Source: Hansfordia pulvinata (Eukaryota; Ascomycota; Sordariomycetes; Xylariales). From it: a stretch of DNA of 64,000 nucleotides. Location of the stretch: contig BJKQ01000009.1 of assembly GCA_006538405.1 (NCBI GenBank), forward strand, positions 496,001-560,000. The letters are read 5' to 3'. Each line of letters begins with the position of its first letter. The first letter of the stretch is position 1. Positions 37,647 to 51,820 of this stretch are shown in pieces. The notes beneath the pieces were generated by a model, which was given only the letters and a program-made list of their open reading frames with translations, did not search any database and was not told the origin of the DNA. The translations under genes and the position numbers were made by a program.

Positions 37647-39605
37647 GGGTTTCTTCTTCTTCAAGTTTTCTGGCTTGGTGCGCCAAGTTATTTTCCTGGA
37701 CATGCATTGGCTCGGAGTTGGTGATGGCGGGGCGTTATTTTGTTGTGTCAAGAAAGATGGACAGTGAGGCTGGCAGAGGAGCGGCATTGATACGGCATTC
37801 AGCATTGGCGTCGGCATCGATATTTGTCACGCCCGGAAAGGAATGGCATCGGCTGGTGGGGTTGGATGGGATTATGGCATGGGCGCAGCATGAAGAGACG
37901 GAGGCCAAGATTCAGGCAGCAGTTGGGTTGACTCTATTCGCGTTTCGTCGAGGAGTTGGGGAAGTCTATGTTGCAGGCGGTTGTCATAGCGAGGATATTC
38001 TTATGATCCTTCCACAGATGAATCTGCTCCGCCCATTGGTGATATAATTCTCACTGCGAAATACCTGATGGTCGGGTTCTGCAGGCGGATAGGACGGCTC
38101 AGATTGAAAGGTCCTCTTCTGAGCCACCAGAGATTATTCCCTTATATGAGGCTCGTGACCCTACGAACCCCGGGTACCACAAGTACGACGTAGCAAGATT
38201 GTTCGCTATGTTGAAGAAACAGCAACGATGTGCCGATATCTATCAAGTGGGTGTCGTCATCCTCTTATCCGATGGTCGTTTACGTCAATGTACGAGATAG
38301 GACGTCTTGAATGTGTAAAAGACTTAGCAAACCTTGAGATTACTCGTAGACTGGATAGTTACCTACGGTGAGATATCTATTCGGCTATCTTGAGTTGTCC
38401 CCGTCGTCACTGGATCCCGCAATTCGTCCTCGACCACAAAATCTCCTTGAATTTGACGAGATATAGGCTTATGTGGGTTTTATAGCGTCAGTCTCCGGAG
38501 ATCCCGCTCAAGCGCGCAACGCACGAGAGGACAAAGACAGGCTCTTGATATTACGTATTGTACATGTTCATCAGAAACAACCATCATGTGCAGAACGATA
38601 AGGGAGCAGTGTTTCTCCGGCAGGGCTACATACTATATTCTAGTTGCAGGTGCTGGATGCTGGTCGATCAATCAAGCACTCGATTAATCAGTCCACGCAG
38701 CTCTGTTATCCAATGAGACTTGAGGAAATTGAGGCCTGTCACCTTGCGTTCTCTACGCGCCGTATCGCCGGGGAAGGGCGCTGGCTCGACTGAATGGCGG
38801 CGATGCCCAGGCAATCCTGAGGCGTGTCGGGATGCCTGTGTAACGCGCATGCAGCCGTCTCAGGGGCTTGTTTCTTGTTCTTGTACAGGCGGGCATGGAA
38901 CCGTGGGAGCATCCGTGCAAGCCTCGGTTGGATGAACAGCAAGCAGAGACACGAAGCTTTAGATCTCGAGAACTTACCTAACTCGTACTCGTAGAAGAGA
39001 CAGAGCGAAAGCAAGCGCAGGCCAGGCCAGGCTGGGCAGGGCAGGGCAGGGCAGGGCGGGCCCACTGAAGGTCGCGCTCCAATCGCGTCAAGCTCCGATC
39101 AGCCCATTCCGCATCCGTGCAACACCATGGATTTCTTTTTTCTCTCTCATTTCTCTATTATCGCAGCTCTTTCTTCGACCGGGCCCTGGCTCTGCACTAC
39201 CACCGCCCCCTGTTCAATGTCCTTTCATCAGACTCTGGCTCAGGCCCCTCGCTTGCGCGGCTGCGAGAGGCAGATCCCGTTAGTTCTGCAGCTTGATCGC
39301 AGACAGCCAGTGACGAAGAGGAGATAGCTCGAGCCCTAGGGCTGCGGGCTGCATCGCCAACACATTCGCCTGTGGCCTGCTCTCGTGGATCATTACGCCG
39401 CGCTGGCACTGCGTCCGAGGTGCGGAATACCGCTGCGAGATACCTACCTACGGGTACCCTACCATCTGCAGACCCCGGGCCGCTGATTAGAGAATTCCTG
39501 TGTGTCGGTGCTCCGTACAAGTACCTAAGCGGGAAGCAAGAAGAACCTGCAGACAGATACTGGGAAGTATCCGGATCAGGCGATCTGCGTATTTCCAATG
39601 TATTA
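37647..39605. other. Intergenic region left of the transposon island, with a coding-like fragment
   Basis: About 1.96 kb. The first part is the 3' flank of the Cys-rich gene. A coding-like fragment lies at about 37990-38300 (listed separately). GGCAG/GGGCA tandem units occur at 39028-39058. The composition is normal for the genome up to the edge of the transposon at 39606, so no RIP spread into the flank is visible. Confidence 0.5.
37990..38300 (+). pseudogene. Orphan coding-like fragment, unidentified
   Basis: One frame reads GYSYDPSTDESAPPIGDIIL then TAKYLMVGF up to about 38080. Another frame, from 38085, reads ADRTAQIERSSSEPPEIIPL, YEARDPTNPGYHKYDVARLF, then AMLKKQQRCADIYQVG and stops at 38298. 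The two could be exons joined at TTCTGCAG (38077-38084), a frameshifted remnant, or a chance. Composition is protein-like, but no start and no clear downstream exon are seen. Family not recognised. Confidence 0.3.
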
Positions 39606-39641
39606 AGGCTTAACAATAGGATACGTTAACACGTTAAACGC
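39606..39641 (+). repeat. Left terminal inverted repeat of the Harbinger element
   Basis: Begins AGGCTTAACAATAGG; the inner 29 bases match the right repeat exactly in reverse complement. Compared with the right end (GGGCTTGACAATAGG), two G-to-A changes are present. Confidence 0.93.
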
Positions 39642-39821
39642 CCAGCAGCACGGTACATCTTCGCCTTATTAAATTAATACGTGTTCCTTAATATCACTTA
39701 CTTATCTCCATTATATATATTAACCGTATTTATTAACCGCCTTTACCCCTTTACGATACGTGTTTTTAACGAACTCGTCGTTTTTTAAGGTGTTTAACCT
39801 TTTATACATATACACACACAC

Positions 39822-39854
<33 letters not shown>

Positions 39855-40275
39855 CACGCGCACACGCGCCCCTTTAAAGTCGGTTAATTACGTGTTTTTA
39901 TATATATATACGTATATGATAAATTCCACCTTTTTAACGTAACGGATCGTAAACGACTTATTAAATAAAAACGCCTTTAACACCTTTTTAAATATCGATA
40001 TTAAACTTAACGTATTTAATAACTTAAACGTTAATATTACCGTTTATAAAAGTATTATCTTATAAAAAGATAACGTTATTAATATAAGCTTTTAAAATAA
40101 AGTTATTATTATATATCCTTCCCTTTTTTAACCCTTAAAGTTAAGTCGTATACGGTGGATTAATAAGGACGTTTATTACCTTATATAATAAATAACTTAT
40201 TATAATAATATTAATATATTTTACGTTATTATTATAAAGGCCTGTTTAAAGGTGTTTTTTTTAATTAAAAACGAT
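39642..40275. other. Left internal segment of the Harbinger element
   Basis: RIP-mutated AT-rich DNA between the left inverted repeat and the retrotransposon. It holds an alternating TA/CA microsatellite (about 39810-39868). PIF/Harbinger elements often carry a second, Myb-like gene, but none could be read here. Confidence 0.5.
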
Positions 40276-40280
40276 ATATT

Positions 40281-40817
40281 TATTACGAACCCGATTATTA
40301 AGCCGGTAAGACGGGCCATATTAATATAAGTAAAAGACCTATAAACTAATAGTTATATAAAACGACGTTAAACCAATTATGTACGTAAGAAAAAGCGGAT
40401 CACGGGTCACGTGATTTAAGGTGCTTAATAAAGGATTATTAAACAGAATTAAGCAAGCGGTTATACTTAACGACGCTCGATTAAGCGTAATTAAGCTATG
40501 TAAATTGCTTAATTCCGCTTAATTAAACTATATAAAGCATATTAAGTAATTAATAAGGGAATAAAGGATATATAAGGATAAAAAGGTTTCTTATATATTT
40601 AATCATTTATTACCTTAATAATTAATTTAAGCATTTAAGTTATTCTTAAATAAAAGTAACCTCTTAACGATAATCTACCACTTATTCAATACTTTAATTA
40701 CCGATTATCAATCGATTACTTAGCGTTTACCGATAAACGACCTTTTAAGTGTTCTTTTAAAATATAAACCCTTAAATTAATTTTATATTTTTCTTAAAAA
40801 GAATTTAAGTTATTATA
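40281..40817 (+). repeat. 5' LTR (537 bp)
   Basis: Starts TATTACGAACCC (a RIP change from TG at the terminus) and ends TTATATTATA. It aligns to the 3' LTR without gaps; the differences I compared are all transitions. Confidence 0.95.
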
Positions 40818-41892
40818 TTTTAATCACTTTTATTTAAGTATTTAATAATTGTTTATTAATACCTTTAAGTAATATTTAATTAACACGATATCGTCCTGAC
40901 CCGGATCCTTTAAATAACCGGTAACGTAAACGCCTTTAAGGAACTTAATTAAAGAAATAAAGGGGGTTAATAATAATAAAAAAGAGTACGATCTTATTAA
41001 AGGCGAGTATAAATAGTTACTTAATAGGCTTCGTACTTTATAAGATTAATTATAAGCTTCGTATTAAGCTTACGAAAACGTTAACGAGTAATTATAATAA
41101 GCCCGTATTAAGCGTATTAATATAGTTAACGAACTTTAATAAGCTTAACTTATTAAAGCTATATAAAGCGTTAAAGGCATTATTAAAGCTCCCTTAATTA
41201 ATATTAACCTTAAGATCAACCCTTTTAAAACCTTTAACAGCACCCTTAAATAACTTTAAAGGTTTTTAACTTAAATAAAAGTATTCTATTAATTATATAA
41301 ACACTTTAATAACGAAAGAGATTAAATTATCCACGCTAGGTCGTTTCTTTATAAAAAGGCTTTAACTTAATTTAAGCTATACCTTATTAAGGTAATCGAT
41401 AAACCTTAAAAGCAATAATCGATTAAAATTAAAGGGATCTTTATATCTTATATTAAATTTAAACGATAACTTAAAGGCTTATTTTAAGACTTAAATAAGA
41501 AACGATAAGCTAAAAAAGAACTTATTAACCTTTAATAAAAGACCTTAACGTCCTTTTACGCCGTAAACTTTAAACGCATCCTTACGTAACTTAATTTAAT
41601 TAAGGAAAATAAGATTCTTACGTTTTATTAAAGATTAAAGGAGGAAGTTAAAGACGAGTTAATTAAATAAGACTTATTAAATAGCTTTATAAAGTATATT
41701 AAGGCCGTTATTTATATTAATTCCCGACTTTATAAGCGACGTCGCGAGAAAGGAGGAAATAATTAACGTATATTATAAAATATAAAGCGATAACGATAAG
41801 GAGGAACGAAGCCTTACTTTACTTTTTATAAGTAATACTTAAGACTTATAAATATTAACCGCGCTCTTAATAATAAGTATAAGAAAATATTT

Positions 41893-41940
41893 AAGTATTA
41901 TAATTACGATAAATTAAGGCATATCGCGCGCGATTATAAA
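41893..41940 (+). pseudogene. gag nucleocapsid zinc-knuckle remnant
   Basis: Reads KYYNYDKLRHIARDYK. The three cysteine positions of the CCHC knuckle all read Tyr (TAT or TAC, one G-to-A step from Cys), while the His is kept. Confidence 0.85.
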
Positions 41941-43702
41941 GCGTTTAAACGACTTAAATAAGTTAACGAACATATTAAAGTTATTAAGGAAGTTACGATA
42001 AATTAAAACGGATAAACCTTTGTACTTAAAGAACGGGTTTATATAACTTATAAGGTATATAATAATTTAAACCTTAACCTTAAATTTAACGCTGCCTTTA
42101 ATATCTTATAAGGAGGGTTTAATAAAGTAATAAAGCATTAAAAACGACGCGTAAATTAATAAACTAAGACCTTTTAAAAAAGGATTTATAATGCCTTTTA
42201 AGTTAATTACATGTATTTAACCTTATAATAATACGTCGGTCACGATATATTTAATATTATAATGCTTTTATAAGACTTAAAGGATATATTAAAATAAAAA
42301 GCACATAAATAAGGCTTTATATAACGTAACTCCTTAAAGTAAATCCTTTAAGTAATCGTAAGAACTATTAATTAAAGGAAGCTTAATATTATTATATAAT
42401 ATAACGTTATACTTCGGATTTTTAAGCACGGATATTAACGAGTCATTATAAAAGAGCGAGCTGCTTATTTAAAATAAAAGATTTAGTTCTTTAACGAATC
42501 CGTAAATAATCCCCGATTATACGTATTACTCGATAAACGATACGATAACGACTTAAACGATATTATTAACGATATGCTTAAAGCTGAGAACGATAAAATA
42601 TAAGAACGTATTAAAATTATGTTATTTATTAAAGAAGATCCTTTTAACTTACTTATTAAAAAGGCTATATTTAAAAATAAGTAAGAATTACGCTTTAAAT
42701 TATACTTTATAAAAAATAAGATAAACGATAAAATTTAAAACGATAAATTAACGATTATAAGGACTCTCACACCCTCGTGATAAAAAACCTTATATTAAAC
42801 GACGAAATAATTAAAGTAACAGATTAATTAACACACGCTTAAACTTTAAAAGGGCTTAACGGATAAATATTAATTCCGGAATCCGACGAATACCTTTTAA
42901 GAAGTTTAATTAATTAAAACGATTAAGGAAAGATTTATTAAGTAAGGAGCTTATATAAATATTCTTTTAATAAAGAAGAAAAAAAAGATTTCTTTTATTA
43001 TAATAAAACCTTCAACGACATGAAAAAACTTATAATAATTTTAAACGAAAAAGACTTAAAAAAGGTATATAAAAACGTATATAACTTAATTCCTTACAGC
43101 GCTCGACACGGCGAGATCGTATAATATAATTATATTTATATTACTTATTAATAACACTTAATTAATAAAGTTAAGTATCGTTACTTCCTTATAAAAGTTA
43201 AAACGCTTAAATTAATACGGGAACCACGATATTATTAATACTTTAATCACTTCGTGTTAATAAAACCTTTTATATCTTATTAAAGAACACTTTTCGTGCC
43301 TTATAAGAAATTAAGATAACATTACAGCTTATTAAAAGGAACCGTGTGCGTAACACGTGTTAAACTCGTAAAGTAAATACGACACTTAATTAAAGAGTTA
43401 ATACTTAAAAGTCGGACGTTAAAATATATTAATAACTTATTAATTAAACTACCACTGTAAAACGATAAATAACGTGCTCCGCCTTTAAACACCGAATCAC
43501 GATAAAGTAAGGCTTTTACGAGCAGCTCTCGATAACACGGCTTAAAACGAGTAACGACGCGATAACACTTAAAAAATTAAAGCACCTTATTATTAATTTA
43601 AGGTAATAAATAAGAAAAACTTATATAATAAGATAAGCCTTTAATAAAAATAAAGCTATATAACTTAACGTAACGGTATGTTATAAATTAAAGAAAATCT
43701 AA

Positions 43703-43762
43703 GTATTAATTAATAACGGATCGACCCGGAATTTAATATCGCCACGAATCGTTAATAAATTT
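43703..43762 (+). pseudogene. Aspartic protease remnant
   Basis: Reads VLINNGSTRNLISPRIVNKF. The catalytic D-S/T-G position reads N-N-G, consistent with G-to-A changes. Confidence 0.75.
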
Positions 43763-44340
43763 AAATTATTATAAAATAAGAAAAACACCCCGTACCGACT
43801 TATAATAATAAATAAGAGTTATTTAAGGAAAGCTTAAAGATAAATCGAACGCGAGACTACGCCTTTCCCGGTTATTATTTAAGAACGACTTATAAACCTT
43901 TAATTAAACATCGTTAATATCTCGGATAAGATAATCTTAAGGATACCTTAATTATAATCGGTAAATCTTAAAGTTAATTAAAGTATTAACCGTTTTTAAT
44001 AAGAAACATTAAAAAGAGATCACGATACTCGGTTAAAGATAACGCTTTTATCACCGAATAGATTTAAGTTTATATTTATAAGACGCGTTATCGTTAAGAT
44101 AATAAAAAGGATTACTTATTAAAATAAGTAATACTTAAAGAGTATCGGTAATTCGCGATATTATTTTAAAATAAGTTCGATATAATAAACGGCTTATTAT
44201 TATACTTAAATTATAATTATACGATACCCTTTAAGGATAAAACTTAATTAACGTTTAAGTCCGTTTACTTATTAAACTTAATATAACGCGTTAAGCTTAA
44301 AAAGAAGCTACGATAAGATTTAAAAAAGGGATATATTAAA

Positions 44341-44830
44341 CCATTCACGTTTTTAATTAATTACCTTATTTTATTCGTGCTTAAAAAGGACGGATCTTAA
44401 AGGATATATATTAACTTTTAATAACTTAATAATATCACGATTAAAAACCGATATTCTTTACCTTTAATTAAAGTGCTTAAAGACTAATTATATAAAGCTA
44501 AGATCTTCACCGCGATAAATTTATTGAACGCTTATTATTTTATTAAGATCTTAAAAGGAAATAAATAAAAGATAGCGTTCCGGACACTTAAAGGATATTT
44601 TAAGTACTTAATAATGCTTTTTAAACTTACGAATACTCTAGTTAATTTTTAAAATATAATCGACGACACTCTTAAACCTTACCTTAATATCTTTATCGTA
44701 ATATACCTTAACGACATTTTAATTTATTCGGAAAACGAAACGGATTATATAAGCTATATAACGTAAGTCCTTTAAGCCTTTTAAAACGTTAACCTTTAAG
44801 TTAACCCGAAAAAGAGTTAATTTTATTAAA
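44341..44830 (+). pseudogene. Reverse transcriptase remnant
   Basis: The YLDD-type box is at 44701-44730 as IYLNDILIYS; the first catalytic Asp reads Asn. Upstream text (about 44380-44540) also fits the RT palm with stops in place of Trp/Gln codons. Confidence 0.9.
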
Positions 44831-45119
44831 TAAAAGTTGATTTCGTTAAATATATTATTTAATTAAGGAAAGTCTTAATATAATAATTTAAGATTTAAGT
44901 AATTAAGGATTAGCTTATTCTTAATAATATTTCGGATATCCGATCGTTTATCGGACTCACGAATTATTACTGTGCTTTTATTAAAAAGTATAATAAACAC
45001 GTTACACCGCTTACCGATATAATAAAAAAGGATCGCTTTTTCAAATAAAATGATAAACTTTAAATAATATTTAACGCGATTAAAAACGCTATTATATAAG
45101 AATTAATTATAATAATAAT

Positions 45120-45520
45120 AAATCTTAATAAACTTATAAAAGTCGAAACTAACGTTAATGACTTCGTTATAAAAGAATAACTTAAATAACGAGATAAATC
45201 CGGTAAGTTACACTTAATAACTTTCTTTTTAAAGAAGTTTAACGGACTTAAGCTTAATTATATAATACACGATAAAAAGCTTATAGTTATTATCGAAGTA
45301 TTTAAGGAATAAAGACATTATTTAAGTAATACCTTTACACTTATAATCGTCCGAACCAATTATAAGAACCTTACGGCTTTCACGGAAAATAAAGTCTTTA
45401 ATAAACGTTAAATTTAATAAATAAAGATCCTCTTTAAATTTAACTTTAAAATCGAATATTATAAAGGTAAAAAGAATGTTAAAACCGACGCTCTTAATAA
45501 ACGATTTAACCACTTTATAA
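45120..45520 (+). pseudogene. RNase H remnant
   Basis: ETNVNDFVI at about 45145-45171 marks the start (the first Asp reads Asn), and DALNKRF near 45488 is the usual end before integrase. Confidence 0.8.
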
Positions 45521-45699
45521 TAAACTTAATAACCGAATTATAATTTATTTTACGATAAGATAAGGATAAAAACTTAATCTTAATATAATAAATCCGACTT
45601 ACTTAAGTTAAAGAAGAATAGTTTAATTATAAATTACGATAAGAAATATAACGCTTAAAAGCATTATTAAATAATAACCGGTTTAACCTCTTTAAATAA

Positions 45700-46860
45700 C
45701 TTAATAAAGTTATACTTTTCCGCGATAAACGATTTATGCTTATATTATTATAACGGTAACTTATTATAATAATTTATAAAGACTTATCTTATAATTATTA
45801 AAAGATTTAAAAAACCATATAATAAGTACGACGCGATTACGATTTTCCGAACCTTAAAAGATTAATTAAAATAATAATCGGAGAATATGATATATATATT
45901 CGATTTAAGGCAACGCGATATAAGCCTTATAAAGAACTTTAACTTATACCTTTTAAAAATAAAGCATAAAAATCGGTTTTAATAAACTTTATTATAAAGT
46001 TACCGTTATTTATAAATTTAATAATTAAAATCGTTTATAATAATATTATAATTTATATAAAATAGCTTATTAAATTTACGAAGTTCCAGCTATTTAAGGA
46101 AACTATAACCGTAATATAAATTATATAACTTATAAATAAAACTATATTTAATTAATATAGTTTATTAAAAAAACTTATTACGGATCGAGATAAGCTTTTT
46201 ATAGCTTACTTTTAAAAATTATTTATATAATAACTCGGAGTGTAATATAAGACGTTAATAATATATCACTTATAAATAAATAATCGTATAGAACGACTTA
46301 ATTAAGTATTAAAGCAGTATTTACGATGTTACGTTAACTTCGAATAAAATAATTAAGTATCCTTTTTACTTAAAGTAAAATTCGTATATAATAACTTAAA
46401 TAATAAAGATATAAAGATATCACCTTTTTATATAAATTATAAATTCAACTTATAAAGATTATAATAAGTAATAATTAACGGTAACGCTTTAAAAGCTATT
46501 ATTTAAGTTAAATATCTCACGACTCTTTATAAACACCTTTATATAAAGCTTACGGTGATTTAATAACGTATAAAACGATATTACGATAATTACCGGTCGT
46601 TAAGGCCGACTTTTAAAAAGGGAGATAAGGTTTATTTATTACGTAAAAATATTCGAATTAAAAGACTTAATAATAAATTAAATTTTAAAAAGATCGGATC
46701 ATTTAAAATTAACGAGATCGTTTTATTAATTAATTATAAATTATCGTTACCCGACGTTATAAGAATTTATTTAATATTTTATATTTTATTATTAAAACCA
46801 GCACCGGTTAACGTATAACTCGAAACCGAAATCGAAGCTGATACCGATGCTTAAAAATTT
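45700..46860 (+). pseudogene. Integrase remnant
   Basis: The HHCC zinc region ends near RRDYDFPNL (about 45830-45856). The core has ITDRDK at 46178-46195 (second Asp kept) and RIERLN at 46285-46302 (Glu kept), fitting the DDE core of Ty3/gypsy integrases. Confidence 0.9.
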
Positions 46861-46980
46861 AAGGTCGAAAAGATATTAAATTCACGTTAATAAGGATTAA
46901 CGATAAAGTATTTAATATAATAAAAAAGTTACTTATTATTAGAAAACACTTAAAAACTTAAGGACCACTTAAGTTACTTA
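46861..46980 (+). pseudogene. Chromodomain remnant at the integrase C-terminus
   Basis: Reads KVEKILNSR, then IKYLI, two stops where Trp-containing text is expected, KSYLLLENT, a stop, KLKDHLSYL. This spacing matches the chromodomain core of fungal chromoviruses, which directs insertion to modified histones. Confidence 0.85.
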
Positions 46981-47674
46981 TAATTATTAAAGCAGTTTCA
47001 CCGTTAATATTTAAAAGGGGAGGAACCGAGAAATTAAAGTTAACGGTAGTTTAATCGATAACATTAAAACCGCTTAAAGCTTAAACCCCGATAGTAATCT
47101 CCGCCTTTTACCGCTTTTATTTATTTAAGTTATTTAAGGATTAAACACCACGTTATATTAACTTCACGCCACGCGAACGAGTTAAAGATTTTATCTTTTA
47201 TAAACGGATTAATTTCGCGATAACCTTATTTATCTCTTATTAATAACGACAACGAATTTCGAAAAGACGAGCCTTAACGGTAAACTCCTTAAATTTTAAA
47301 CGATCATGTTCTTAACGAATACGCTTTAGCGACGCGATAAGAATATTAATATTATTATAAATAAACCTTACTTAAAAACACTCCTTATATTTCGACGTCC
47401 CTTTAACTATCACGCACTTCCACCCTTTATCGAAGCAGCGAGTGTAAAGCATCACTTCGAAATTAAACGAATCGAAAAAAGGAAGGAAGTCGTGCCGGCG
47501 TTAAGTAAACGATCGCCGACTAAAAAAAGTCTTATTAACCTTTAAAGGCATAATTAATAAGGCCGGTATAAAAAGAAGGAAAGAACGCGTTATAAAGGCC
47601 ACGCTTATATTAAGGCTTACTCACTTTTTTATATTAATTAATTAAGGATAAATAACTTAAAAGGAAAAGTATAA

Positions 47675-48211
47675 TATTACGAACCCGATTATTAAGCTAA
47701 TAAAATAAGCTATATTAATATAAGTAAAAGACCTGTAAATTAATAATTATATAAAACGACGTTAAACCAATTATATACGTAAGAAAAAGCGGATTACGGG
47801 TCACGTGATTTAAGGTGCTTAATAAAGGATTATTAAGTAAAATTAAGCAGGCGGTTATACTTAACAACGCTCGATTAAGCGTAATTAAGCTATATAAGTT
47901 GCTTAATTCCGCTTAATTAAGCTATATAAAGCATATTAAGTAATTAATAAAGGAATAAAGGATATATAAGGATAAAAAGGTTTCTTATGTATTTAATTAT
48001 TTATTACCTTAATGATTAATTTAAGCATTTAAGTCATTCTTAAATAAGAGTAACCTCTTAATAATAGTCTACCACTTATTCAATACTTTAATTACCGATT
48101 ATTAATCGATTACTTAACGTCTACCGATAAACGACCTTTCGAGTGTTCTTTTAAAACATAAACCCTTAAATTAATTCTGTATTTTTCTTAAGAAGAATCC
48201 AGGTCGTTACA
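47675..48211 (+). repeat. 3' LTR (537 bp)
   Basis: Starts TATTACGAACCC and ends GGTCGTTACA, keeping the canonical CA end. The last 17 bases have fewer RIP changes than the 5' copy. Both LTRs keep GGGTCACGTGATTTAAGG-like sequence in the middle. Confidence 0.95.
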
Positions 48212-48216
48212 ATATT

Positions 48217-49379
48217 ATTATACGATTTATTAAAGCTATAATTTATATAAAATATAAAGGATAAGTAAATAAAATAACTTTACCGTTAACGTTTATATTA
48301 TACTTTTATATTAAAAAGCGTTAATAATAATAATAAAAATAAGTTTAACGCCCCCTTTATAAGTAATAAGAAGTAAAAAGAGTTTTTAATAAAGTAAAGG
48401 CATTTTTAAGATATATATAACGTAAAGAATAAGTTAATCCGTAATAAAATATTATATAAAGTTATTTTTAATAAAGATTAAGTAATTAATCTTTTTATCC
48501 GCCCGTTTAAAAGTATAATAAGCTTATTAACGCTTACTTAATTTATAAGGAACGATAACGATATATCGTTATTATTATTAACGTTAAAAAAGAGGAGGAA
48601 AAAGGATAATAATATATTAAAAAGTTTAATTACGAAAAGGGGTTAAAAAACGTATATTAAAGTTATTAATTATATATAAAAGCACTTTAAAAGGTAACTC
48701 ACCCGCTTAAAGCTAATAAAGGCCAGCGTCGTGTTAAAATAAGGGCTTAATATTATTATAATACTTAAATAACTTATAAATAAGGCGAAATTAAAGGTTT
48801 TAAGGGTGCTTTTAAATAAGTAAAGTAATAAAAATAAAGCGTATATATATATATAAGCGGGTATATATATATTAAAGTAAAGTAATATTAAATAATAATA
48901 ATTAAAGTTATCGGTTATACTTAAATTACTTATTTTAATTAAAAAACGGGTTAAACTTAATTAAAAATAATAATTAAATAAGTTTAACTTAAGTTTAATT
49001 AATAATAATAATATATTAAAGGCGTGTTTTTTCGTAATTCTTATTAATATTATTAATATTACTTAACTCGCTTAAAACCGCACTCTTTTATTATTAATAA
49101 GAAAACATATATACCGGCTTATTAATTATTAAAAAGCTTTTAAAAATAATAATTACCGATTAATAAACGGCCGGTATTATCTCGATTTAAAGTTTAAGCG
49201 ATTAAGTGCTTTAAACTTCGCTTAAAGTACGTTTACGATCTTTATATATAATTGCTTTACCGGTAACCCTTTATATTACTTTTATATCTCTTCCTTTTTT
49301 ATATTTATTATTTCCTTTATTAACCTGCTTATCGGTTAATAAAACTCTTTTAACGGTACTTTATTTATTTTAATAAAGT
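48217..49379. other. Internal RIP-mutated Harbinger sequence
   Basis: AT-rich, full of stops in all frames; simple (TA)n runs near 48844-48870. A second element gene may have been here, but no family could be read. Confidence 0.4.
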
Positions 49380-50100
49380 TATAAAGGGTGTAAATAACGT
49401 ATATAATATCGATTTACATTTATAATAAAAACTTTTAATTTAAGTATTACACGATCTTAAACCTCCTTTTTAATTAACCGAACGTCCTTTTAATAATCTT
49501 TTAATATTATAAATATTAATAATTAAATATTTTATTGCTTAACTTTAATATTTTTAACTTATCACGTTACTTTTAATAATAATAATAAAGTCTTAAAATA
49601 AGCACGATTATATTAAAGTAAAGGTTAAATCCGTTATTAATAAGGATAAAGCGATCTTATAATATTTTAAACCTTATTACTTTAATATACTTTAATATAA
49701 AAAAGTTATATATAAACCCTTTAACGCTTATTAACACGTATAAAAATGTGTAATTTAATTATATAACGGTGAAAACGTTTTACGAAACGCTTCCTTTATA
49801 AGATTATTATTATAATTAACGTACTTTAAGTATATATATAAAGATATATATACTATTAATAACACCGATATAGCCTTTAAACTCCCCTTTTTATAAGTTT
49901 ATTTTTAACTTATAATAAAGTTAATTATCCTTTAAAATCCTTATAAAATCGTTATATATAACCGGTATATACCTTAACACCTTTTAAAACACGTTATAAA
50001 CGCTTTAATATATAAGGTTAAAGCGGTTATTAACGTCCTTTTACGTACCGTTATACTTAAAGACGTATAAAAAGATTATTAAATATATTAACGTTAAAAG
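49380..50100 (-). pseudogene. DDE_4 (PIF/Harbinger) transposase remnant
   Basis: Four landmarks lie in one minus-strand frame without indels: YIGVINS (first catalytic Asp reads Asn; 49852-49875), SVKGFIYN (second Asp reads Asn; 49705-49727), INNGF (49627-49641) and IIKRTFG followed by LKRRFKIV (49454-49500), where the catalytic Glu reads Lys (49489-49491). All changes are G-to-A type. The N-terminal part (to about 50340) is less clear. Confidence 0.8.
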
Positions 50101-50717
50101 CCTTTAAGTGCCTTTAAAGCCTGCTTTTAACTTTAAGCAGTTTAATAATTATTAAAACACGGCTTATAATATTTTAATAATAAAAATAATCCTTTTTTCT
50201 TTATTATTTAATAATTTAATAATAATATAAGTGGCTTATAAAGCGTTATTATATTTAATAAATAACGTATAACGTTAAGCACGTAGTTTACGCTTTCGGC
50301 ATTATTATAAAAGCACCTTATTATCGCTCTTATTATCGTTATTAATCTTTATATTAAAAGGTGTTATATTGTTTTTTAATAGCTTTTAATATAATAAATA
50401 TACCTTTAAACTTTATATAAATTATATAAGAAATAAAAGACTTTACTTTATTATTAAGAAATCGATTTAAACGTTATTATACGTAATAACGGTTAAAACT
50501 TTAAAAAAACTTTATTTTATAAGTAAAAAACGTAAGATTATACCTTATATAAGACCCTTATTAACTCGTTACATCGCGAAACTTTATATAAATCCACGAT
50601 AACTTATATAAACGTAAATCTTATTAAAATAAGTGTAAGACTGCTTAACGGCGTTAAAATTAACTGCTTAACGGCTGTGAGCGGTAAGTTTTACGGCGAT
50701 CGTTCTTGGCAAATTCT

Positions 50718-50753
50718 GCGTTTAACGTGTTAACGTATCCTATTGTCAAGCCC
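50718..50753 (-). repeat. Right terminal inverted repeat of the Harbinger element
   Basis: Read on the minus strand from the outer end it begins GGGCTTGACAATAGG. Just inside (50641-50690) are two direct copies of CTGCTTAACGGC, possible subterminal transposase-binding repeats. Confidence 0.93.
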
Positions 50754-50756
50754 TTA

Positions 50757-51820
50757 ATCGGTGATATAATCTCGTATACGAAAAAAACGTACGAGGCCTC
50801 GATCAGCAGTGAATCCTCCGTAGCCGGACAGCACCCGACTACTTTTTTCTGCTGCCACGAGGACAGGCACGGACAGCCAGGCGCACTCGTAGGTGGGAAA
50901 AGGCCGCCAGACTCGAGATTATCAGCGCATCCCTTTTCATTTTTCCCGACCCTCTTCGTCTGCCCGCTTGTGTCGGCACTGGCTGTTCATCTTTGTTGCT
51001 CAGCGCTCCTGTTCTGCCCTCTAGGTACCTATTAATCGCGTTTCCTGCCTTGCCCGAACACCTCCACCAAGAACAAGTCCGCTTCCGTAGGCACCCGCCC
51101 AACAGCCACACACACCCTCTCACCGGCACGCGCGCGCCTCGCCTCATCCGCCGCCGCCCCAAAACCACCACCCACCACCTCCAGGCTACCTTGCTTGCTA
51201 CCTCACGCACATTACGCGCCCATCGCATCAACAAACCACTCCCGCCGCCCCTGCAGACGCGCCCCTTGCACAAGAGAACATATCACGGCAGAACAAGGTC
51301 CTTTGTCGTTACACCCGACTTCAGCTGCTGCTCGATTCCGTCCTGTCGTGCCCTGACTGCTTCCCGGCTTCCGACGCTGTAAGTCTCCTGTCAACAAAGA
51401 CGCCTGTTTGTGCTACACCACCCCGACCAGCGCTCGTATCCCTCTCCCTCTTCACCCATCCCCCAGCATCACCTCACCTATATCAACCCCGACTCTGGCC
51501 AACAGTCCCGCGGCCCTCTGCGCCTTTCATCTTGTCCATCATCCATTTCACACTGCGCTCGCTGCCTACCTACCTACTTCTTCCCACCACTTCTCGTATT
51601 CCCCCCTCCACCAGCCTCGCGCCGGTTCGCGACCATCCTCAAACCCGCGCTAGCCCCATCGCGCATCCCTACCTCTCCGTGGCCCATCCCCATCACAGTC
51701 GCGCTCATCCCCGACGCGTCTGTCCAGCTTGTTGACGAGCCAGGCCTCCCAGCGCGCGGCGATTATCACCAGCGCCGCTTCCACAACACATCCCATCAGC
51801 AACCAGATCACCCGACCGCG
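50757..51820. other. RCC1 promoter and long 5' leader
   Basis: Composition returns to normal immediately right of the transposon. From about 51000 the + strand is strongly C-rich (CCACC, CACC, CATCCC), as in fungal promoter/leader regions. A possible leader intron donor, CTGTAAGTC, is at about 51378. The frame ahead of the RCC1 ATG is open but is judged untranslated. Confidence 0.55.

Follow-up and report, generated by a model that had tools for sequence, protein, structure and literature searches.

An AT-rich island in the genome of Hansfordia pulvinata (GCA_006538405.1; 46.8 Mb, 63 contigs) is very probably best explained as two nested dead transposons: a PIF/Harbinger-type DNA transposon, degraded by repeat-induced point mutation (RIP), and within it a Ty3/gypsy retroelement, probably a chromovirus, which heterochromatin on the older element may have drawn in. 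The island lies in the window analyzed here, a 64,000-nt stretch of contig BJKQ01000009.1 (C9:496001-560000). Coordinates without a contig label are positions in this window; other loci are given as contig:position. The GC content is 0.21-0.32 per kb across the island (40001-51000) and 0.244 for the whole element; it is 0.57 and 0.58 in the 550 bp beyond each edge and 0.59 in positions 1-39500. A stretch that could be described simply as AT-rich is resolved here into events that can be placed in order.

The outer element spans 39606-50753 and is 3212 bp long when the retroelement and one ATATT are subtracted (Table 1). The initial annotation, made from the window alone, placed 36-bp inverted repeats at both edges of the island with TTA on either side, and both are present. 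The real island contains four exact inverted 26-mers, as against none in any of 200 Markov-resampled islands. TTA/TTA is obtained only if the repeat begins one base ahead of GG; the other register tried gives TAA/CTT. The reading in the initial annotation depended on the ends recurring elsewhere in the genome, and DNA searches with both ends and the middle of the outer element identified five sister copies (C10a, C10b, C12, C26 and C3), all with inverted ends and 3-bp duplications. The ends of C10a and C12 match those of the window almost letter for letter, while those of C10b, C26 and C3 are related. The duplication is found in 6/6 copies, one of which (C26) carries a single mismatch, and the core of the inverted repeat is of the GGCC type in all six.

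PiggyBac and Kolobok are TTAA-type transposon classes, and TTAA is present at both edges in the window. Assignment of the outer element to such a class is nevertheless highly improbable, as this register requires a gap and fails at C10a and C12, and the transposase matches DDE_Tnp_4. The TTAA register was rejected on the sister-copy targets CTA and TAT.

The two 36-bp repeats differ at two positions, both A/G. These mismatches had been attributed to RIP and are of the appropriate type, but the terminal one is more likely an inherited asymmetry, judging from the sister sequences. At the outermost position 6/6 copies have A at the left end and 5/6 have G at the right, and C3, C10b and C26 are among the five that carry the left-A/right-G mismatch. 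These three copies are separate lineages (transversions per site: C3-C10b, 0.10; C3-C26, 0.12). Because the mismatch is shared by five of the six copies, including lineages diverged by transversions, inheritance is likelier than RIP. In the C6, C15 and C3-pair relics discussed below, the duplications fit without an extra terminal base. The inverted repeats presumably resemble the ends of mPing.

The predicted DDE_4-type transposase is found on the minus strand, where a DDE_Tnp_4 domain scores 26.1 bits (cut-off 24.8). The frame was chosen by tblastx against one relic, with stops scanned as X. In the same frame the sister copies score 19.5 (C10a), 15.7 (C10b), 23.4 (C26), 28.3 (C3) and 31.4 bits (C12), such that all six copies match at E-values of 0.012 or lower and three are above the cut-off. 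A second conserved frame on the opposite strand possibly corresponds to the second gene usual in Harbinger elements; it was detected by tblastx among the sister copies, and its approximate window coordinates were transferred by alignment. No Pfam match to a second Harbinger protein (Myb/SANT or other) was found in six frames of one sister copy. The transposase match, the inverted repeats and the 3-bp duplications support classification of the outer element as a PIF/Harbinger-type DNA transposon. The overall reading of the initial annotation is supported.

The inner retroelement is 7931 bp in length and has the two 537-bp long terminal repeats (LTRs) flanked by ATATT that had been described, the 5-bp duplication being as expected of Ty3/gypsy elements. 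RVT_1, RT_RNaseH and SH3_Tf2-1 are all above their Pfam cut-offs, and reverse transcriptase and RNase H precede the integrase region, as in Ty3/gypsy elements. The further designation as a chromovirus is less secure: the candidate chromodomain covers nearly the full profile and is correctly placed and in frame, the two remaining frames being blank, but it scores below the cut-off. The element is classified as Ty3/gypsy and probably a chromovirus, comparable to the MAGGY-like fungal chromoviruses. A supposed zinc knuckle has no Pfam match in three frames.

Both elements appear to have been mutated by RIP, as had been proposed. The two LTRs differ at 45 positions, comprising 45 transitions and 0 transversions. 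TpA/ApT is 1.36-1.42 across the three parts of the island versus 0.69 in window 1-39500, and the RIP substrate index is 0.21-0.32 versus 1.24. Divergence among C9 (the window copy), C10a and C12 is likewise almost purely transitional (251 transitions and 3 transversions over 2107 sites for C9 and C10a). Together with the gene composition, RIP suggests a filamentous ascomycete host.

The order of the two insertions can be read from the sister copies. The joined flanks of the retroelement in the window align to C10a and C12 straight through the insertion point; as these copies are continuous over the site, the Harbinger element landed before the retroelement, as first proposed.

Table 1. Features of the nested elements in the window and locations of the sister copies (duplications included); target triplets are in element orientation.
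Feature	Position	Strand	Remarks
Target-site duplication, left	39603-39605		TTA
Terminal inverted repeat, left	39606-39641	+	36 bp; five sister copies share it or have related ends
Outer PIF/Harbinger-type element, left part	39606-40280	+	terminates in first ATATT (40276-40280)
Ty3/gypsy retroelement	40281-48211	+	RIP-mutated
5' LTR	40281-40817	+	537 bp
Reverse transcriptase remnant	44380-44841	+	RVT_1, 39 bits; also tblastn
RNase H remnant	45124-45432	+	RT_RNaseH, 49.1 bits
Integrase region	45811-46800	+	tblastn to Ty3 pol, 25% identity, E-value 2.5e-15
SH3_Tf2-1	46621-46800	+	35.3 bits; closes integrase region
Possible chromodomain	46858-47004	+	15.2 bits (below cut-off 25.1); integrase frame
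3' LTR	47675-48211	+	537 bp
Retroelement target duplication, second copy	48212-48216		ATATT
Outer PIF/Harbinger-type element, right part	48217-50753	+
Second conserved frame, approximate 3' part	48217-48804	+	tblastx, sister copies; split by retroelement (5' part ~40147-40280)
Transposase remnant	49366-50115	-	23 stops; DDE_Tnp_4 at ~49378-49806
Terminal inverted repeat, right	50718-50753	-	36 bp
Target-site duplication, right	50754-50756		TTA
Sister copy C10a	C10:1379037-1390386		target CTA
Sister copy C12	C12:776760-791651		target TAT
Sister copy C10b	C10:240390-251355		target TTA
Sister copy C26	C26:153448-164185		target TTA/TCA
Sister copy C3	C3:403454-414074		target TTA

Each of the six copies has an LTR insertion at its own site. 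The 537-bp-LTR type is present in C9, and C10b has a diverged relative of it. A 184-bp-LTR chromovirus occupies C26 and C3 and has left a solo LTR in C10a; C10a also contains a 175-bp-LTR type and C12 a 170-bp-LTR type. Insert cut points are alignment ends, accurate to a few bases. The duplications around the inserts in C10a, C26 and C3 and around the solo LTR were identified by visual inspection, the C12 reading being uncertain. Pfam searches on pieces of the C12 insert were empty, and tblastn gave only a weak Ty3 reverse transcriptase match. That the 11-kb unit moves as a single composite transposon with the retroelement inside would agree with the similar size of the six copies (10.6-14.9 kb). 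We consider this very unlikely, however, because no insertion point is common to any two of the six and the inserts come from at least four LTR families; even the retroelement shared by C26 and C3 lies in different places with different duplications (by eye). With all insertion points distinct, composite transposition was rejected for the six copies, and independent nesting into Harbinger elements is retained.

The inserts in C26 (C26:155999-163237) and C3 (C3:403683-410939) are free of RIP. Their GC content is 0.535 and their indices are normal; each has a pair of identical LTRs, and a clear chromodomain (38.2 bits) is encoded in an open pol frame. Over 7239 aligned sites the two inserts are separated by 2 substitutions, with a net length difference of 17 bases. 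The Harbinger elements that surround them are RIP-mutated (GC 0.22-0.24), with the exception of the last 234 bp of C3 (0.38). Because an un-RIPed insert within a RIPed Harbinger must have arrived afterwards, insertion after host RIP is demonstrated for C26 and C3, and the claim is confined to these two copies. These are also the two youngest insertions seen. The Harbinger relics and older LTR copies read in this genome are heavily RIPed, so either the insertion of this chromovirus is very recent or RIP is now inactive.

Seven further Harbinger relics were taken from 34 matches, of which 22, all at or below 65.3 bits, were left aside. The C1 and C2 relics contain the 175-bp-LTR type, and in a C3 relic at ~2.859 Mb a 170-bp solo LTR occurs together with an element related to the 184-bp-LTR one (65-67% identity); these three relics were seen in part only. 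The target triplets of the remaining four are TAA (C15), TCA (C6), and TTA and TAA (a neighboring pair on C3). The pair (C3:2594561-2601184) consists of two RIPed Harbingers in the same direction, 12 bp apart, and the separate duplications indicate two independent insertions. In total, LTR insertions are found in 9/13 Harbinger relics, representing 11 events and at least four LTR families. The C3 relic at ~2.859 Mb is in a larger AT-rich nest (C3:2858500-2889100) that comprises a C15-like Harbinger, the solo LTR, the relative of the 184-bp-LTR element and an element of the 175-bp-LTR type (2867340-2875213). A distant segment of the nest matches the right end of Harbinger (2880881-2880999) and is followed after 92 bp by an element of the 537-bp-LTR type (2881091-2889064).

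The proposed model for the formation of the island is as follows. A 3.2-kb PIF/Harbinger-type transposon would have entered DNA of normal GC content at a TTA site, probably in the same burst as C10a and C12 because transversions are nearly lacking among these copies. A Ty3/gypsy element, probably a chromovirus, would have entered this transposon, creating a 5-bp duplication, and both would have been mutated by RIP, the Harbinger perhaps already before the insertion. Chromodomains guide integration to heterochromatin. The most likely reason for the choice of site is that AT-rich DNA made by RIP would become H3K9-methylated heterochromatin, which would draw chromodomain integrases. It is a tentative proposal, with slightly less than an even chance of being right, that short-LTR elements of the chromovirus type land repeatedly on single RIP-mutated Harbinger islands. 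If so, RIP not only kills one transposon but also creates a target that attracts the next.

An alternative for this last step, which leaves the nesting itself untouched, is that retroelements insert anywhere and persist where they are harmless, as in dead transposons. We regard this as a serious possibility, though one somewhat below an even chance. In some fungi LTR elements are commonly found nested in dead elements, and Mycosphaerella graminicola is without obvious insertion preference, according to PMC4522978. The counts of short-LTR loci argue in the other direction. Among 44 loci of three short-LTR families, 8 are in the approximately 43 kb of Harbinger relics; the 44 loci were obtained after removal of 2/69 LTR matches (short opposite-strand rows) and include short matches. 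Excluding a single discovery locus for each family leaves 5/41 in relics, for which the Poisson P is 6e-10 if the whole genome is available for insertion, 3e-5 for a 5-Mb compartment and 0.03 for a 1-Mb compartment; these compartment sizes are assumed, the three families were picked for their presence in relics, and the locus counting is of limited sensitivity. A bias of LTR insertion towards Harbinger relics is therefore likely, and chromatin may be its cause.

Several observations weigh against the model or parts of it. The outer flanks of two older 184-bp-LTR loci (C3:69720-76979 and C6:1833978-1841229) are near normal in GC (0.49-0.58 over 1500 bases), and 4/13 relics (C6, C15 and the C3 pair) have no insertion; both count in favor of persistence without targeting. 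The 537-bp-LTR family shows no clear bias: among the 59 matches listed (40/121 candidates scored), the window copy is the one in a relic, with perhaps a second where the C3 nest ends near 2.881 Mb. The chromodomain of the window retroelement is below its cut-off, and the integrase core was not found by Pfam in the pieces tried. For the outer element, searching the genome with the Pfam family recovered 0/6 copies and a single other relic, just above the cut-off (25.4 bits). Finally, the 3-bp target length given in the initial annotation holds in 6/6 copies, but its strict TWA consensus fails at CTA (C10a) and TAT (C12).

Three further features were noted. An AC/AT microsatellite (39810-39870) in the left Harbinger part is probably the source of several short genome matches. 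No tRNA genes were called in the window by ARAGORN (bacterial settings). DDE_1 matches, which we take to represent pogo/Fot1-type elements, are confined to contigs C23, C24, C29 and C43 (8/8), and 4/6 of the strong ones have at most one stop; these contigs are perhaps accessory chromosomes less affected by RIP.

The relics form a natural series: an uninterrupted RIPed relic, a RIPed relic with a fresh un-RIPed insert, and a relic with a RIPed insert. This series allows chromodomain-guided landing to be tested at isolated single sites rather than in large repeat clusters. Landing of this kind in RIP-made heterochromatin is a known principle, and the nesting pattern observed here fits it. Harbinger relics as repeated chromovirus landing sites were not found described in searches of the open-licence literature.

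The outer element shares with PIF/Harbinger transposons (Harbinger/Nuwa, PHIS superfamily) the DDE_Tnp_4 domain, inverted repeats starting with GG, a 3-bp duplication that is often TTA, a length of approximately 3.2 kb and possibly a second frame on the opposite strand. It differs in the non-strict TWA target among the six copies, the extra terminal base (A on the left, mostly G on the right) and the absence of a Myb/SANT match in the one copy scanned; in addition, all six copies are dead from RIP. According to PMC12730594, which covers fungal Harbingers, canonical Harbinger elements have 3-bp duplications and Nuwa elements encode two proteins, and PMC3562529 describes a mutated Harbinger of M. 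fijiensis at a CTC site.

The retroelement of the window shares reverse transcriptase, RNase H, SH3_Tf2-1 and the 5-bp duplication with fungal chromoviruses. Its candidate chromodomain scores below the cut-off, whereas that of the un-RIPed C26/C3 element, a separate family, is clear.

The arrangement as a whole is ordinary in kind, yet is a clear example of a dead transposon serving as the landing site for another. Nested LTR insertions, with DNA transposons also as the base, are described for M. graminicola in PMC4522978, where LTR elements are the commonest primary insertion into other elements and Leptosphaeria and Epichloe are also mentioned; nesting within transposon-rich niches of Zymoseptoria is discussed in PMC9970103. 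The islands of H. pulvinata share with such clusters in RIP-bearing fungi the insertion of LTR elements into other elements. They differ in that the hosts are single Harbinger islands, with GC-normal flanks where checked, and in that two of the insertions took place after RIP had mutated their hosts.

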